DNA of 64,000 nt. Source: Bacteroidota bacterium. Lineage in GTDB: Bacteria; Bacteroidota; Bacteroidia; Chitinophagales; Chitinophagaceae. Position 1 is the first letter of the stretch, and the number at the start of each line of letters is the position of its first letter. This document shows, one piece after another, positions 22,222 to 31,648 of the stretch. The notes below the pieces were generated by a model. That model ran no database searches and was not told where the DNA came from. It was given only the letters and a program-made list of their open reading frames with translations. The stretch is taken from contig JAFDXK010000001.1 of NCBI GenBank assembly GCA_018267965.1, forward strand, positions 992,001 to 1,056,000, read 5' to 3'. Position numbers and translations under genes: made by a program.

Positions 22222-22240
22222 ATACTAATAAAATAAAAAA

Positions 22241-22298
22241 CCTCCCCTTATTCCCCTCCTTAGTAAGGAGGGGATGTCCGAAGGACAAGGGTGGTTGA
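22241..22298 (-). repeat. Folded dispersed repeat, subfamily 1, copy a
   Basis: Sequence order: outer arm CCTCCCCTT, palindrome CCCCTCC-TTAGTAA-GGAGGGG, small hairpin GTC-CGAAG-GAC, outer arm AAGGGTGG. It is the same element as the two copies around the DUF559 gene at 29.5 kb, differing in the palindrome loop-closing bases by a compensatory T/A swap. It follows the stop of the C45-family gene by 19 bases and may also act in termination. Confidence 0.85.
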
Positions 22299-23514: not shown

Positions 23515-23526
23515 AGATTCTTTTTA

Positions 23527-23631
23527 CCCGTCATTTCGAGTATTCTTATAAAAGCACCGTCATGCCGTGCTCTTTTTATCCGTCATTGCGAACGTAGTAT
23601 TTCATCCTCTCTCTTACCCGTCATTGCGAAT
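23527..23631. repeat. Run of CGTCATTGCGA-type repeat fragments
   Basis: Three related units, CCCGTCATTTCGAG at 23527, CCGTCATTGCGAACG at 23580 and CCCGTCATTGCGAAT at 23617, occur with a short hairpin GCAC...GTGC around 23554-23570. They look like truncated ends of the longer CGTCATTGCG elements at 26615 and 27941. Confidence 0.65.
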
Positions 23632-23635
23632 ATCT

Positions 23636-23690
23636 ACCACCTCCCTCCGACATTCGTCGGAGTACTCCTCCTAAAAACAGGAGGAGAGTC
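23636..23690 (+). repeat. Folded dispersed repeat, subfamily 2, copy b
   Basis: Order: ACCACCTCC, hairpin CTCCGAC-ATTC-GTCGGAG, palindrome CTCCTCC-TAAAAACA-GGAGGAG, then AGTC. It lies 31 bases upstream of the first DUF559 gene. The copy immediately after that gene (24091) is the same architecture in inverse orientation. Confidence 0.85.
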
Positions 23691-23721
23691 TTTTGTCTTT
23701 TGTTTTTTGTATTTTAGTTGA

Positions 23722-24090
23722 ATGAGAAAAGGACAAATTAAGAACGTACCTTATCTTACTGATACAAGAAAAGAATTAAGAAAAAATCTTACGCCAGCCG
23801 AAGCTGAACTGTGGAAATATTTACAGAATAATAAATTGGGTCGGAAATTCAGACGTCAATACGGTATAGAGCATTACATAACAGATTTTTGTTGTCCTAA
23901 AGAAAAATTGGTTATTGAATTAGATGGCGAAGTACATAATAATATCGTTCAGGGAGGTTTGGATGAAGAACGTGATGAACGATTGAATGAGTTAGGGTAT
24001 AAAGTATTGCGTTTTGAGAATAAAGATATTTTCTATAATGCTGATCGGGTGATAAGTGAAATTATAAATCACCTTAAAAACATTAAATAA
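23722..24090 (+). CDS. DUF559 endonuclease-domain protein, first copy
   Basis: The 122-residue protein has the Vsr/restriction-like PD-(D/E)xK fold. After LRKNLTPAEAELWKYLQ and RKFRRQYGIEHYI come the catalytic candidates Asp in ITDFCCP and Glu/Asp in VIELDGEVH, then the C-terminal VLRFENKDIF. DUF559 proteins are widespread in bacteria and of unproven function; a nicking or mismatch nuclease role is inferred from the fold. The gene is bracketed by inverted copies of a folded repeat, and its stop codon directly abuts the downstream copy. It is clearly a diverged paralogue of the gene at 29474 (same motifs, many substitutions). Confidence 0.88.
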   Translation: MRKGQIKNVPYLTDTRKELRKNLTPAEAELWKYLQNNKLGRKFRRQYGIEHYITDFCCPKEKLVIELDGEVHNNIVQGGLDEERDERLNELGYKVLRFENKDIFYNADRVISEIINHLKNIK

Positions 24091-24150
24091 GACTCCTTCC
24101 CTGTTTTTAGGGAAGGTGGCACGAGTGTAGCGAGTGACGGAAGGGTTGAC
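24091..24150 (-). repeat. Folded dispersed repeat, subfamily 2, copy c
   Basis: On the minus strand: ACCCTTCCGTC, variable hairpin region, CC, palindrome CCTTCCC-TAAAAACA-GGGAAGG, AGTC. Compared with copy b, the palindrome stem has changed on both sides while the loop TAAAAACA is identical. It starts on the base after the DUF559 stop. Confidence 0.85.
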
Positions 24151-24174: not shown

Positions 24175-25067
24175 TCACAAATAATCCGCTATATCTGCAC
24201 CATCTTCTGATGAAAAATGTTTATCCTCCAACAGCCTGCTGACATTACAATGTCCTATGTGCCGACTCACAGCTACCCATTTATCATACGCACCCGCATC
24301 AGGAAACAATGTCACTCTTCGTCCCTGTAATACTTTACATTTCTGCGGGTTCAGGTTGTTGATACTACCTGCTGCCAGCCAAATATATTCAGGCATTCGT
24401 ACACTGGCCATCAGCGCGGTCTTCTCACTTTCTACAATAGCTACGGGTTGGTTGTTGCCACGCAACAGGTGTTCTCCAAACAGGCATTGCCTGAGGTTGT
24501 GTAATGTTCATAACCGCAGAGTTTGTGCATCCATGTAATGTAGTTGATAGGTGTTTTGATACGCTGCCCGCTATCGGGATAATAGAGCATCACCTTGCCG
24601 GTGCGAATGATGCCGTGTATATCTATCTGCCAAAAAACAGTGCTGCAATCCCAGTGATGATGCGTACCAATGTAATATTGATTGATGAGCCTATTAGTTA
24701 CCTCATTGCCAAAACGCATACGCAGGTAATGCGCCAGGTGATTGTTCTCATAACCCGAAAGTGTTTCGAGGAAGAAATGTTTTTCAATGCTGGATACAGG
24801 AGGAGCGTTTTTATGAGACACCTTTCCTGTTCTTAAGGAAGGTGGCACGAGTGTAGCGAGTGACGGAAGGGTAGTGCCTGCCTCTCTTGGCGGCTTATGA
24901 TACCCGCAACTATCCTGCCTGTTGCAGCGCCCGATGTCGTCACCGAGGTGTTGATTGGTTTCGGTATCTATATAGCGCACAAATACACGCTTCAGCCCGC
25001 ATTGCGGACAGGTATAACGGCTTGCTTGCCCTTTATAAGGCTCTAATGTGTAACGATAGTTTTTCAT
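24175..25067 (-). pseudogene. Zn-ribbon/Toprim-like primase-type protein (DUF6371-like), frameshifted
   Basis: The first frame (25067 to 24441, 208 residues) holds an N-terminal Zn-ribbon (YTCPQCG, GRCNRQDSCGYH) of the kind seen in Bacteroidota mobile-element primase-like proteins. The second frame (to 24175) continues with LRQCLFGEHLLRG, VAIVESEKTALMAS and FPDAGAYDKW, the Toprim-like part, and ends ADIADYL. The two frames join near 24500-24512, where a one-base indel separates GYEH from HNLRQ. Residues 64-83 are encoded by a copy of the folded repeat (24820-24873), inserted in frame. The partner is probably the RepA-like ATPase at 26825; the pair would be a replication module of an integrated element. 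A sequencing error cannot be excluded for the frameshift. Confidence 0.75.
24820..24873 (-). repeat. Folded dispersed repeat, subfamily 2, copy d, inside a coding sequence
   Basis: This copy matches copy c over its whole length, including the core ACGAGTGTAGCGAG (24847-24860). It is read in frame by the Zn-ribbon/Toprim gene, giving the residues TLPSLATLVPPSLRTGK. The palindrome has one wobble and one mismatch, so it is slightly decayed compared with copies c and e. Confidence 0.85.
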
Positions 25068-25335: not shown

Positions 25336-25392
25336 GACCCTTCCGTCTTGAGCTTCGCTCAATCCACCTTCCCTAAGAACAGGGAAGGAGTC
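25336..25392 (+). repeat. Folded dispersed repeat, subfamily 2, copy e
   Basis: Order: ACCCTTCCGTC, hairpin TTGAGC-TTCG-CTCAA, CCA, palindrome CCTTCCC-TAAGAACA-GGGAAGG, AGTC. It is preceded by a CGTCATTGCGGG fragment at 25321. The hairpin here is a clean stem with a TTCG loop, unlike the same position in copy c. Confidence 0.85.
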
Positions 25393-25418
25393 GTATACAA
25401 TTATTAAAAACTGCAAGA

Positions 25419-25471
25419 ACTCTCCTCCTGTTTTTAGGAGGAGTACCCGAGTGAAACGAGGGGGAGGTGGT
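25419..25471 (-). repeat. Folded dispersed repeat, subfamily 2, copy f
   Basis: Reverse orientation of copy b: on the minus strand ACCACCTCC, a variable segment ending ACTCGGG, then palindrome CTCCTCC-TAAAAACA-GGAGGAG. The stretch 25310-25586 holds only copies e and f and the sequence TTGTCCCGAACTTGTTTCGGG, no gene. Confidence 0.8.
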
Positions 25472-25586
25472 TGATAACTGCATGACGCTTGTCCCGAACT
25501 TGTTTCGGGAGGGTTGAGTGGTTTGTTTCACGTTGTTTCATTGTTTCAGGAATGAGGATGTGAAACAGTGAAACAAATGAAACAGG

Positions 25587-28192: not shown

Positions 28193-28684
28193 ATGAAACA
28201 GTTAATTACTTTCGCTTTTATCCTGTGTAGTTTCAACGCCATTGCGCAAGACATTACCATACCTCAAAGAACAAAGAAGCAAATGCCTTCAATGGCAGAG
28301 TTTGGAGCAGCGGCAGGTATTTTTGTGGGTGACCAAGGCTTGTCTGCCAATACAAGGCTTACTATCACCAATATGCTTGGCGGTTATGTACAGGCTTTCG
28401 GAAATCTGGATGCTTATACGGGCGGAGCTGGAGGGCTATTATCAGTTGGCGCAGGATTGAATTTCACCTCTGGAACAAAGTCTTATTTCTATGGCGGTAT
28501 CTATGCGGGCTATGGTTTTTTAGGAGAGAAAGTTTTCTTACCCGGCGGCCAGTTGGGTTTTGTTGCTTATGTTTCGAAGAACGTTGGTTTCGGATTAGAA
28601 GCAGGATATCGTTACATAATTGGCTCACTTGACAATACATATATGTATCCTGTATTAGCACAAGTAAGGCTTGCTCTCGATTAA
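28193..28684 (+). CDS. Predicted small outer membrane beta-barrel protein
   Basis: The protein has 163 residues with a signal peptide (KQLITFAFILCSFNAIAQ). After a short polar stretch come alternating glycine-rich amphipathic strands, such as GYVQAFGNLDAYTGGAGGLLSVGAGLNF, FYGGIYAGYGFLG and VGFGLEAGYRYIIG, consistent with an eight-stranded barrel. The family is not recognised. It stands alone between the accessory stretch and the alpha/beta hydrolase gene. Confidence 0.6.
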   Translation: MKQLITFAFILCSFNAIAQDITIPQRTKKQMPSMAEFGAAAGIFVGDQGLSANTRLTITNMLGGYVQAFGNLDAYTGGAGGLLSVGAGLNFTSGTKSYFYGGIYAGYGFLGEKVFLPGGQLGFVAYVSKNVGFGLEAGYRYIIGSLDNTYMYPVLAQVRLALD

Positions 28685-28761
28685 AGTGCATTTTAACATA
28701 GTAATTCAATTTTGTAGCGCAAGTACATTGAACTAAATACTTAGTTTTGCCATAACTTAGC

Positions 28762-29391
28762 ATGACTATGAAAAAACTATTACTCATCTGCCTCGTATGC
28801 CTTACCACTCATGCACAGGCACAACAATATGTCTTCTTCCTGCACAATATGTGGCTGGAACTGGTAGATACCAATATCAATACGCCTCACCCCGAATATG
28901 GCAGGGCACAGTATTACGAGGTAATAGATAAGTTTAAAAAAGCAGGGCTGACAGTTATTAGTGAGCTACGCCCGCGAGGCACTAATGGTAATGTATATGC
29001 CATAAAGGTGGCGCATCAGATAGATAGCCTGCTGAAAAAGGGAGTGCCTGCATCACACATTACGGTGGTGGGTACGTCTAAGGGTGGGTATATAACGATG
29101 TGTGTATCGGGCATCATGAAAAACACGGCTATCAATTACGTGCTGGTTGGTTGCTGCGAAGATGATGAACTGACAGATGACGCCATACACTTGTTGGGCA
29201 ATATCCTTTCTATCTATGAAACAAGCGACAAGTACAATAGCTGTCAGCAAATAAAGGCTAAACCGGGCAACGATGTAAAACGTTTCAAAGAAATAGTACT
29301 GCACACCAACCTGAAACACGGCTTCCTGTACCGTGCCATGGACGAATGGATAAAACCCGCATCTCGCTGGGCAAAGGGGGATTATAAATGA
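28762..29391 (+). CDS. Secreted alpha/beta hydrolase-fold protein
   Basis: The protein has 209 residues with a signal peptide (KKLLLICLVCLTTHAQAQ); the second Met at 28768 is an equally good start. The hydrolase core has the nucleophile elbow VVGTSKGGYITMCVSG, an early YVFFLHNMWLEL oxyanion region and a late HTNLKHGFLYR holding a His candidate. The acid residue is not certain. The substrate is unknown. The stop is 5 bases before the left direct repeat of the second DUF559 cassette. Confidence 0.75.
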   Translation: MTMKKLLLICLVCLTTHAQAQQYVFFLHNMWLELVDTNINTPHPEYGRAQYYEVIDKFKKAGLTVISELRPRGTNGNVYAIKVAHQIDSLLKKGVPASHITVVGTSKGGYITMCVSGIMKNTAINYVLVGCCEDDELTDDAIHLLGNILSIYETSDKYNSCQQIKAKPGNDVKRFKEIVLHTNLKHGFLYRAMDEWIKPASRWAKGDYK

Positions 29392-29395
29392 GTTG

Positions 29396-29468
29396 GATAA
29401 CTACCTCCCCTTAGTCCCCTCCTAAGTTAGGAGGGGATGTCCGAAGGACAGGGGTGGTACTAAACAAT
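29396..29468 (-). repeat. Folded dispersed repeat, subfamily 1, copy g (left flank)
   Basis: 73 nt starting GATAACTACC and ending GTACTAAACAAT. Outer arms TACCTCCCCT and AGGGGTGGTA pair with one mismatch around palindrome CCCCTCC-TAAGTTA-GGAGGGG and hairpin GTC-CGAAG-GAC. It is nearly identical to copy h on the other side of the DUF559 gene. Confidence 0.9.
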
Positions 29469-29473
29469 ATATC

Positions 29474-29845
29474 ATGAAGCAAAGAAATCTTTTCAACGAT
29501 AAATCGCTATTAGATTCAAGAAGGGAGTTACGAAACAATCCGACTCCTGAAGAAGCATTATTGTGGGATAGGTTAAAGAACAAGCAACTTCAAAACAGGA
29601 AATTCAGAAGACAACATAGTATTGGTAACTATATCTTAGATTTTTATTGTCCTTCAGAGATGATCGCCGTAGAATTGGATGGGGCGCATCATTTTACTAC
29701 AGCAGGAAAACAATATGACGATGAACGTACACTTTATTTAAACGAAATAGGAATAAGAGTATTACGGTTTCCGAATAGCAGCGTAACAAATGACATAGAA
29801 GTTGTTTTGGGGAAAATATGTGAGCACTTTAAAAGTTCTTCATAA
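29474..29845 (+). CDS. DUF559 endonuclease-domain protein, second copy
   Basis: The 123-residue protein is a paralogue of the gene at 23722, with LRNNPTPEEALLWDRLK, RKFRRQHSIGNYI, the catalytic candidates in ILDFYCP and AVELDGAHH, and IRVLRFPNSSV at the C-terminus. This copy keeps the more usual DFYCP and ELDG-x-HH forms. The fold is that of Vsr-like nucleases; the substrate is unproven. It is expressed from within a cassette of direct folded repeats, 5 bases after the left one and 3 bases before the right one. Confidence 0.9.
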   Translation: MKQRNLFNDKSLLDSRRELRNNPTPEEALLWDRLKNKQLQNRKFRRQHSIGNYILDFYCPSEMIAVELDGAHHFTTAGKQYDDERTLYLNEIGIRVLRFPNSSVTNDIEVVLGKICEHFKSSS

Positions 29846-29848
29846 ACA

Positions 29849-29926
29849 GATAACTACCTCCCCTTAGTCCCCTCCTAAGTTAGGAGGGGATGTCTTGCGA
29901 AGTAAGACAGGGGCGGTACTAAACAA
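29849..29926 (-). repeat. Folded dispersed repeat, subfamily 1, copy h (right flank)
   Basis: Same as copy g except that the small hairpin is longer: GTCTT-GCGAAG-TAAGAC in place of GTC-CGAAG-GAC, with both sides of the stem extended together, and GGGGCGG for GGGGTGG. It ends 6 bases before the ATG of the acetyltransferase gene. Confidence 0.9.
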
Positions 29927-29932
29927 TTATAA

Positions 29933-30406
29933 ATGAGCAACATCACCTATAGGCTGGCTACAGCCAACGACACACCATTATTAATAGCCTACAGGCTAAA
30001 GCTATTACTGTTTGTATCAACCACTTCGCATACTGATGATGAGATAGATACACTTACACAACAGTTCGAGGCATATTTTCCAAAAGCCATCAACGAGGGT
30101 ACTTATATAGCATGGATAGCCGAATGTGATGGGCAAACGGCAGCAGTTTCGGGTATGGTGGTCTATGACCGTCCTGCAGGTTTCAGATGCCCTACTGGCA
30201 GGGTAGGTTATATATTGGGCATTTATACCGAACCTGAATACAGAAGGCGTGGTATTTGTGGCACACTAATGGGAAAGCTGGAGCAATCTGCAAGAGAACA
30301 TAACATTACTACCATGGCCATGCATGCTACTGAAGAGGGCGAACGTGTCTATCGCAAAAATGGATTTAAAGAGCCTGGAAGCCTTGTGTTAGAGAAGCAT
30401 TTATAA
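29933..30406 (+). CDS. GNAT-family N-acetyltransferase
   Basis: The 157-residue protein begins TYRLATANDTPLLIAYRLKLL and has acetyl-CoA motif A in YILGIYTEPEYRRRGICGTLMGKLE, followed by HNITTMAMHATEEGERVYRKNGF. The fold assignment is firm and the substrate unknown. Its leader is almost entirely the right-hand repeat of the DUF559 cassette, which must therefore influence its expression. The last 6 bases overlap the convergent transglutaminase-like gene. Confidence 0.88.
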   Translation: MSNITYRLATANDTPLLIAYRLKLLLFVSTTSHTDDEIDTLTQQFEAYFPKAINEGTYIAWIAECDGQTAAVSGMVVYDRPAGFRCPTGRVGYILGIYTEPEYRRRGICGTLMGKLEQSAREHNITTMAMHATEEGERVYRKNGFKEPGSLVLEKHL

Positions 30407-31648
30407 AACAGGCGCTTGCCAAAATTTATCTGCATTATTTGTTCTGTAACGTATAAAAACAGTTTCTTTACCGGCATCCCCGTCAACAGTTTTATCAGGT
30501 TTTTGTTTATAATATTCTACAGGCAGAAGCTCTACATACTCCAGTGTTTTACCTGCCTTACGGCTTTCAAGGTCATACACACTATTTACAGGACATTGGA
30601 GCTTGTATAGGTTTTTAGCCATGTAATAATCAAGGTAATCTTCTTTAACAGTAGAGTTTTTATGGTTCCAGTTAGCGTCTGGGTTCACAATCAATGTTTG
30701 TCCGTTAATCAATCTCTCACGCACTTCCTGTATGCCTAAGAGTTCTCCTTTTTCATTCATTATATAGGCATCATGAGTAGGGTCCATCCAAAGCCATTTT
30801 TTTAATTTCCTAGAATATACTGCGTCAATCACATGGCAATCCTGGTCTTTCCCAAGACTATCTTTAGGCATACACGTTACCAATCTTGAAGGATAGCCCA
30901 TTGCGAGGTAACATTCATTCAGCACAAATACCAACCCACGGCAATTAAGCCCCCTGCTATCTTTCTTACATACATTCAATAAGCCTAACGCGTTATATAC
31001 TGCCGGGTTTGAATGGCTACCGTCGTGTGAGATATTATTATGAACCCAATGTAGAATATTTATCATTCTTGATGTTTCATTACCATACCCCGCAATAGAG
31101 TCAAGGTTCAGTGTTTTCCTCAGTTTTTGTAATGATTCGCTTGTATCACGCTGGTAGGTAAATACAGGTACTGTACGTTCATCAGCACTATTATAATCCT
31201 TAGCTTTTTTAAGGATGTACATATAATCTCCAGTCTCCTTTAGCCTGTTCAATATCTTTATAAAACGTGGCTCATTTCTTATACCATCAAGGTCTTTATC
31301 TTCTAGTATATGATAATAGCCATCATACCCAATGGCTATAGATTTTTCAAAACTGTTTAATGCCATTTCTTTATTACCTAACAAAGCGTAAGTGCAACAG
31401 AGATTGTAGTACATACCATAGTAATAGTGGTCATACTCCTTCTTATCTTCTTTAGAGAGTGTTTTATATTTCTTTTCAAAGTCTTTCAACAAGGCACTGA
31501 ATTCCTTTGGGTCTCGCTTATCATAAGCAATCATCGTCAGGCTATCTTGCACATGGGCATAGTGCTGAAATTCCTGTGCCTTTAGAGAGTTAGCAACTAA
31601 CACTAAAAGGGCAATAAGAAATAATAAGCTTCTTTTCTTAGAACACAT
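30401..31648 (-). CDS. Secreted transglutaminase-like protein with helical N-terminal repeats
   Basis: From the ATG at 31646-31648 the protein has 415 residues and a signal peptide (KKRSLLFLIALLVLVANSLKAQ); an upstream Met at 31664 is also possible. Residues about 50-130 look like TPR-type repeats (YNLCCTYALLGNKEMALNSFEKSI). The transglutaminase/protease-fold triad candidates are Cys in GLNCRGLVFVLNE, His in DCHVIDAVYS and Asp in WMDPTHDAY. It could be a periplasmic peptidase or cross-linking enzyme. It diverges from a second transglutaminase-like gene at 31759. Confidence 0.8.
   Translation of the reverse strand: MCSKKRSLLFLIALLVLVANSLKAQEFQHYAHVQDSLTMIAYDKRDPKEFSALLKDFEKKYKTLSKEDKKEYDHYYYGMYYNLCCTYALLGNKEMALNSFEKSIAIGYDGYYHILEDKDLDGIRNEPRFIKILNRLKETGDYMYILKKAKDYNSADERTVPVFTYQRDTSESLQKLRKTLNLDSIAGYGNETSRMINILHWVHNNISHDGSHSNPAVYNALGLLNVCKKDSRGLNCRGLVFVLNECYLAMGYPSRLVTCMPKDSLGKDQDCHVIDAVYSRKLKKWLWMDPTHDAYIMNEKGELLGIQEVRERLINGQTLIVNPDANWNHKNSTVKEDYLDYYMAKNLYKLQCPVNSVYDLESRKAGKTLEYVELLPVEYYKQKPDKTVDGDAGKETVFIRYRTNNADKFWQAPVL

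Follow-up and report, generated by a model that had tools for sequence, protein, structure and literature searches.

A DUF559 nuclease gene between two palindromes as a probable member of a family of mobile palindromic elements

Why is a small nuclease gene enclosed by two nearly identical palindromes that occupy all the space between its neighbours? This question is posed by positions 29396-29927 of the window, by which we mean the whole 64,000-nucleotide stretch of DNA analysed here. The unit consists of a palindrome, a DUF559 gene and a second palindrome, and lies 3-5 nt from the neighbouring genes, so that it fills the intergenic space, as stated in a preliminary description of this locus. 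The upstream gene has no Pfam match, and the downstream gene was annotated as GNAT. The left palindrome (29396-29468, forward strand) measures 73 nt and is composed of an outer stem (ACCTCCCCT/AGGGGTGGT), hairpin 1 (TCCCCTCCTAAGTTAGGAGGGGA) and hairpin 2 (GTCCGAAGGAC), which form a three-way junction according to repeat comparison, folding and covariation. The right copy (29849-29927, forward strand), based on repeat comparison and folding, has the same orientation, is identical to the left one in its first 46 nt and carries a longer hairpin 2 (GTCTTGCGAAGTAAGAC). It measures 79 nt and ends at 29927, instead of the 78 nt given before, whereas the 73 nt of the left copy was correct. Both copies fold into the outer stem and two hairpins originally proposed, with DNA z-scores of -4.2 to -5.4, and in each of the four folds none of 200 shuffles was equally stable. 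The reported difference in hairpin 2 was also found on both arms of the stem (GTC/GAC versus GTCTT/AAGAC). An Rfam search of positions 28600-30800 gave no match, and a known RNA family was therefore rejected as explanation for the palindrome.

The framed gene (29474-29845, forward strand, 123 aa) encodes a predicted EDxHD/Vsr-like PD-(D/E)XK nuclease, and its original identification as DUF559 (PF04480) is secure (Pfam E = 2.6e-31). In a Foldseek search, the structure model of the protein (pLDDT 83.6) matched the Neisseria endonuclease-like protein 3hrl, the catalytic domain of I-Bth0305I (3r3p, E = 2.9e-4) and, more weakly, Vsr (E = 0.03-0.05). A PDB profile search agreed for 3hrl and 3r3p (E = 2e-6 for the latter), and the matches in PHROGs include a homing endonuclease family (E = 2.5e-5). 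PADLOC returned weak matches alone (best E = 5.7e-6), for which reason the nuclease was rejected as a defence-system component. The residues E67, D69, H73 and D82 are invariant in A5 and, in our reading, may represent the EDxHD residues. Catalytic-type residues (D64, E75, D77 and H81) were retained in all 50 in-gene copies, described below, although these are high-scoring hits and hence a biased sample. In earlier work, one passage mentions, without explaining it, the fusion of DUF559 to SPOUT proteins (PMC1829167), the intein section of another paper places a DUF559 gene next to the EDxHD family (PMC9403480), and a passage in a third ties the DUF559 protein VsrA of Caulobacter to cytosine methylation and the SOS response (PMC12907096).

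With up to 3 mismatches allowed, the window has three occurrences of a 20-nt core of the palindrome (0 in 100 shuffles), and a gene-less single copy of the palindrome lies between ORFs at 22240-22295 (forward strand). The genome of the window has 11 strong places (≥66 bits) for a repeat model trained on 10 of them, and two weaker ones (35 and 27 bits). The model also gave 7 places (8 matches) in congener G013 and single places in four other genomes; 53 of 59 genomes had none. G013 also carries the nuclease (L044) with the highest similarity in the tree set (53%). When 10 copies from the window's genome were aligned, with some rows misaligned in the outer stem, 92.8% of the pair cells were kept. 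Covariation, which had been suggested as a check, gave modest support to the palindrome structure: the score of 0.159 was not reached in any of 500 shuffles and 7 cells were altered on both sides (1/500 shuffles), but pairs with a double change (3; 138/500 shuffles) and further pair types (10; 248/500 shuffles) did not stand out. The anticipated enrichment of the repeat near DUF559 was present in number, since three of 12 palindrome copies have one of this genome's four small DUF559 genes at a distance of at most 500 bp (0.018 expected), but two of these three belong to the window unit and are thus the original observation. Ten of the 12 places are solitary, i.e. away from the window unit, and nine are more than 500 bp from any of the four genes, which counts against a nuclease-linked reading. 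At one place (L010; G000:C5:273049-276087), two window-type palindromes with ~110 nt of common surroundings bracket a small ORF that by eye resembles a membrane protein; no convincing nuclease relic was found between them, the space being occupied by this other ORF.

Aside from its four small DUF559 genes, two of which lie in the window (23722-24090 and 29474-29845), the genome has two weak DUF559 matches in longer frames. Pyrimidine-rich palindromes of at least three subtypes (by eye) are found near all four small genes, and two related units (L001 and L003) are located on different contigs. The sole Y1 gene (PF01797), which we take to be a RAYT or RAYT-like gene, adjoins a repeat family other than the window palindrome, and the window repeats were therefore rejected as RAYT REPs. 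In the genus, the Y1 transposase genes of L062, L063 and L065 adjoin their own REP family (TTGTCCCATCGGGACAA and ACAAAGCT/AGCTTTGT types) and have, by eye, the same downstream gene.

The second nuclease of the window (23722-24090, 122 aa) is bordered by a left inverted-repeat arm of another repeat subtype at 23636-23693 and a right arm at 24090-24149, all on the forward strand. These repeats are inverted, whereas the unit at 29396-29927 has direct copies. Half an element of the second type is found on the reverse strand at 24813-24872, in frame within the ORF at 24441-25067 (reverse strand; peptide TTLPSLATLVPPSLRTGKVS), and a nuclease-less copy with both inverted arms and a core of ~30 nt is present at 25337-25472 (forward strand). 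Upstream of the second unit, positions 23524-23640 contain three TTACCCGTCATTGCGAATAT-like repeat copies.

An empty site with a single repeat copy, as had been envisaged, was not found at the window locus, whose neighbours are non-adjacent in relatives. Orthologues of the upstream gene are present in six congeners (G002, G004, G005, G006, G007 and G013), and the stretch of ~1-1.5 kb at each of them contains neither a DUF559 nor a GNAT gene, hence there was no allele comparison at this locus. Related units at other sites do vary between genomes. In the window's own genus, MiaB is uninterrupted in 13 of 15 genomes and contains a unit at the same place in two; G005 carries the MiaB unit, and MiaB of G011 is empty though nearly identical to that of G010. 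No second MiaB over the curated cut-off was found in the two unit-bearing genomes. In Flavobacterium, the genus of G373 (111 genomes, 105 with MetH), site 1 of MetH is filled in nine genomes and site 2 in four, with units at both sites in G731. Of the 105 MetH congeners, 57 were read directly (together with three genomes outside the genus) and the other 48 were judged by match pattern; G645 was left out of the counts because its match is broken at a contig end. Among those read, 44 have neither a MetH unit nor a nuclease-less copy (site 2 of L367 was unreadable). Nuclease-less in-frame copies with the same terminal inverted repeats were found at site 2 in three genomes (L352, seen in the DNA, and L342 and L343, seen as peptide alone), two of which are also filled at site 1. 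As far as sequence was fetched, 12 of 13 MetH units are in frame on both sides; in the unit of G716, MetH before the site is in one frame, and the nuclease and the rest of MetH are in another. Two nucleases within one MetH, at both insertion sites, were noted in L263, which shares its genome with L344, and in L282. The surveys overlap, since L262, L279, L324 and L263 come from genomes G373, G653, G654 and G731, respectively.

The trees in this analysis are quick ones with many open forks. In a MetH tree of 60 rows, each of the two sites required 7 changes, which is as scattered as shuffled labels; filled L345 lies in a starred clade with three empty genes, and L350 is sister to empty L377 (support 90). 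Outside the genus, the 30 best-scoring MetH genes that were read at the loop are all uninterrupted, and eight units from families f24, f36, f54 and f65 reside at exactly the same MetH loop. The recurrent use of MetH and LeuRS loops could point to tolerance hot-spots. At site 2 of MetH in L340, L358, L370 and L396, other in-frame short repeats are present (QPTTDNRQPTT, TELVEV and SEVEQQ), which gives this loop the look of a general landing place. Inspection by eye of the compared MetH and MiaB sites revealed no target-site duplication, within the limits that host divergence sets on this comparison. With in-gene units, the native loop is shorter by none to ~10 residues, and this loss could result from resection at insertion or from later trimming. 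The empty MiaB and MetH sites that were read contain no palindrome of the window kind, apart from the three nuclease-less copies. The predicted presence and absence of gene plus repeat is seen at MiaB and MetH.

The occurrence of many units within coding genes, in frame, goes beyond the preliminary description. Related nucleases are found in frame within MetH, MiaB, LeuRS, MetRS, IleRS, ValRS, CinA, UvrA, AroC and others, where unrelated housekeeping proteins are split by a translated palindrome, the nuclease and another translated palindrome. These units are mostly flanked by inverted repeats with subterminal hairpins, and the translated repeats directly border the nuclease. A comparison of four in-gene nucleases with one genome per species gave at least 557 relatives, of which the best 80 loci were examined. 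These 80 loci contain 82 domains, and for 75 of these the frame is 200 aa or longer. The hosts by motif were the MetH loop (33), MetH elsewhere (4), MetRS (8), CinA (5), IleRS (4), adenine deaminase (3), IcmF (3), ValRS (2) and others (13), with 7 short frames. Host names were assigned by eye or motif; ten were checked by NCBIfam, and nine scored over the curated cut-off, with AroC, which is cut by a contig start, below it. The NCBIfam scan of ten in-gene ORFs (E 1e-20) returned the host families, the DUF559 model in four and no intein model, and the units apparently live unspliced as an extra loop of the host protein. According to their titles, most carriers among the best 80 loci are Bacteroidota, with a few Nitrotoga, Ignavibacterium and Anaerolineae. 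They include the cultured collection strains F. frigidimaris DSM 15937, F. cucumis DSM 18830, F. orientale CGMCC 1.12506 and Salegentibacter holothuriorum DSM 23405, therefore the in-gene units are not caused by metagenome assembly. In L326, ValRS contains a nuclease unit and a second in-frame copy that seemingly comprises the nuclease start (YGYCTANLSEILTSPS) and the ends alone.

Across the phylum, DUF559 was detected at E 1e-12 in 167 of 392 genomes. The survey set comprised 129 domains in 127 of 129 loci (125 unique), mainly high-scoring hits, and short or N-rich flanks led to the removal of 11 of the 125 from the analysis of flank similarity and of 8 from that of hairpins. In 50 of 114 testable domains, the similarity of left and right flanks exceeded the 99th percentile of 684 control windows. 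Hairpins on both the left and the right flank scored above the 95th percentile in 36 of 117 domains compared to 1 of 468 controls. The control windows were drawn at random from the same loci and are mostly coding, hence terminators inflate the contrast for standalone genes but not for the in-gene subset. Half of the 36 double-hairpin domains are among the 47 in-gene domains, and terminators are no explanation for these 18. Where flanks were strongly similar, the arrangement was direct in 31 of 39 short frames, and long frames gave 5 direct and 6 inverted cases. Several DUF559 matches contain internal stop codons and are decayed copies (G027:C70:114493, G286:C1:2049364, G348:C1:1323077, G326:C2:1586145, G701:C27:66505 and G662:C32:13357). 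Paired DUF559 genes were noticed in G442 (C1:330877 and 334128; equal scores, 3.2 kb apart) and in L045 (~1.2 kb apart).

In one relative, two units on different contigs are 85.5% identical over ~490 bp, and this shared stretch begins 23 nt outside the left hairpin and stops 3 nt past the right hairpin. Within a single genome, L138 and L165 lie on separate contigs as related units and have further repeated stretches in common farther away, and L131 and L159, from two genera, have the gene alone in common. Related units in collinear surroundings were found in L141/L155, L163/L182 and L168/L169/L175. L081/L082 are collinear on one side and were therefore dropped as an example of one unit at two places. 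In the nuclease tree, from which two domains shorter than 85 aa were dropped, many in-gene copies lie close together with their host genes mixed and many forks left unresolved; for example, the LeuRS copy groups with a copy in a UvrD-like helicase (by eye) with an SH-aLRT support of 95.

In Flavobacterium, the ends of the element are inverted repeats of ~27 bp that contain a subterminal hairpin. In several copies, the left end consists of AGCCCCCC, a short spacer, the hairpin CCCCC-GAA-GGGGG and AGCT, and the right end is the inverse; other end variants, e.g. CGCCCCCC, occur as well. In plan, the nuclease-less form has an outer stem and two hairpins, which is the layout of the window palindrome. 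Its minimum-energy fold is one long stem and not a three-way junction, since pairing also takes place between the two hairpin sequences. In the 71 in-gene loci, the left and right ends of the same locus matched with a mean of 19.2 versus 13.6 for ends of other loci (0/5000 permutations), the own match was above the 95th percentile in 27, and the inverted orientation beat the direct one 57 to 11, with 3 ties. The exact end pattern was present in 13 of the 111 congeners (0 of 111 for the reversed control). DUF559 of any clade was found in 11 of these 13 genomes versus 32 of the 98 without ends (Fisher p = 0.0005), two of the 13 having no DUF559 at E 1e-12, and the exact end pattern was absent from three of 12 genomes with a MetH unit.

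At the level of the family, units recur at different places in one genome, vary at orthologous sites, leave nuclease-less derivatives and keep catalytic-type residues. Together with flank sharing far above control, this upholds, for the family, the suggestion that nuclease and palindrome form a mobile unit. With a probability of roughly 60%, the window locus belongs to a family of mobile palindromic elements that carry a single gene, for an EDxHD/Vsr-type (DUF559) nuclease; that the window unit itself is mobile we infer from this family. Such an element would consist of an outer inverted repeat with two hairpins. In nuclease-bearing copies the gene would be enclosed by the hairpins or by two palindromes, and nuclease-less copies would be short palindromes scattered in the genome. 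The nuclease may make a break after recognition of the target, of the palindrome ends in the form of a duplex, a cruciform or a single-strand hairpin, or of both, and repair would then copy the element in, a homing-like copy-and-paste by which the nuclease would drive the spread of the element. If a lone palindrome were cut and repaired from a nuclease-bearing copy, two full direct palindromes would end up around the gene, as in the window. Many elements are open throughout in one frame, repeats and gene alike, which allows them to reside inside essential genes, apparently unspliced, as an extra loop of the host protein. Judged from the sequences, the odds are slightly in favour of a new class of autonomous mobile element, with an EDxHD homing-type nuclease in hairpin-bearing terminal inverted repeats, nuclease-less miniatures, spread between unrelated genes, and many copies in frame and unspliced in essential enzymes.

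The palindromes might instead be moved by other machinery, such as RAYT/Y1, another transposase or template switching at hairpins in replication, with the nuclease as a passenger or a guardian of retention, like TnpB in IS605. Most window-type palindromes are indeed far from any nuclease, a palindrome pair can bracket another ORF (L010), and DUF559 is absent in two of the 13 genomes with ends. We consider this explanation rather unlikely, since the genome's own Y1 gene adjoins a different repeat family and six genomes (G001, G002, G005, G006, G026 and G056) have a strong DUF559 match without PF01797, the one family used in the transposase search; completeness is 98% or higher in three of these (G002, G005 and G006), among them G005 with its MiaB unit.

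It is improbable that the in-gene copies are ordinary domain fusions with a host function and the standalone genes Vsr-like repair or defence nucleases whose flanks are merely terminators, considering the scatter of filled and empty states at a single site in one genus, the nuclease-less in-frame copies, the mixed host genes in the nuclease tree, the hairpins within coding sequence and the weakness of the PADLOC matches (best E 5.7e-6). This explanation would agree with the location of standalone genes between genes, with the presence of defence genes (HsdR and methylases, by eye) among the hosts, and with the reported link of VsrA from Caulobacter, itself a DUF559 protein, to the SOS response and to methylation of cytosine (PMC12907096). 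Plain homing endonuclease genes, which spread by allelic gene conversion alone amid palindromes that are unrelated clutter, would account for the EDxHD fold and motif and for the repeated use of the same MetH, LeuRS and MetRS sites. They would not lead one to expect that unrelated genes contain related nucleases, that one genome has two units, that the inverted ends of a given unit match one another, or that gene-less copies retain both ends. These observations make this last explanation very improbable.

A mobile palindromic element with its own nuclease resembles several known systems. Like RAYT/REP (TnpA_REP with its REPs), it has a single-gene unit framed by palindromes, and solitary palindromes elsewhere in the genome (10 of 12 places here), but the framed gene is an EDxHD-type nuclease (PF04480) and not a Y1 HuH transposase (PF01797), and many copies are intragenic and in frame. 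With PF04480 as the framed gene and a Y1 gene that adjoins different repeats, the initial comparison with RAYT/REP, with a nuclease in place of the transposase, is apt as a concept. IS200/IS605 elements with TnpB have subterminal hairpins and a nuclease that could favour retention, and the DUF559 unit may be similar in both respects; unlike these elements, it has no TnpA, and positions 28600-30800 gave no Rfam match and no evidence of a guide RNA. Rickettsia palindromic elements (RPE) are described, in the passage concerned, as translated insertions that keep the reading frame of the unrelated genes in which they lie (PMC10969869). The DUF559 elements are similar to RPE and in-frame MITEs in this respect and in their short nuclease-less copies with the same terminal inverted repeats (MetH site 2; window 25337-25472), but they differ in having nuclease-bearing copies and inverted repeats around a gene, and in their phylum. 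With the EDxHD homing endonuclease I-Bth0305I they have in common the catalytic fold and profile, residence in conserved genes and a sporadic distribution, and a DUF559 gene was linked to the EDxHD family before (intein section of PMC9403480). In contrast to EDxHD, intein or intron homing, no intron or intein partner was seen and the units are apparently unspliced, related nucleases are found in non-homologous genes, and the ends are palindromic and inverted. EDxHD enzymes are also described, in a passage of PMC3943268, with a separate DNA-binding arm, which the 123-aa window protein does not have.

A search of open-licence papers found no account of DUF559 elements with palindromic ends. To our knowledge, each ingredient has a precedent, and the combination has none. 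We also know of no mover for the RPE of Rickettsia. If the preferred reading is correct, a common domain of unknown function would obtain a role, a likely mover could be named for a class of abundant bacterial palindromes, and the puzzle of in-frame palindromic elements would become directly testable. Many DUF559 'domain fusions' may then be insertions, and the tolerated loop would be a third way for selfish DNA to exist in essential genes, besides introns, with their spliced RNA, and inteins, with their spliced protein.

Each of the 17 relatives from viral_contigs has, on both sides, a hairpin with a computed score of at least 18, an uncontrolled value for sequences that look GC-rich. On these IMG/VR contigs (L243-L259), 12 of which are 4-8.3 kb long, DUF559 is accompanied by strong hairpins, e.g. 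TCCGCCCCC...GGGGGCGGA, and in one of them (L256) it is part of a 1059-aa frame with inverted hairpins.
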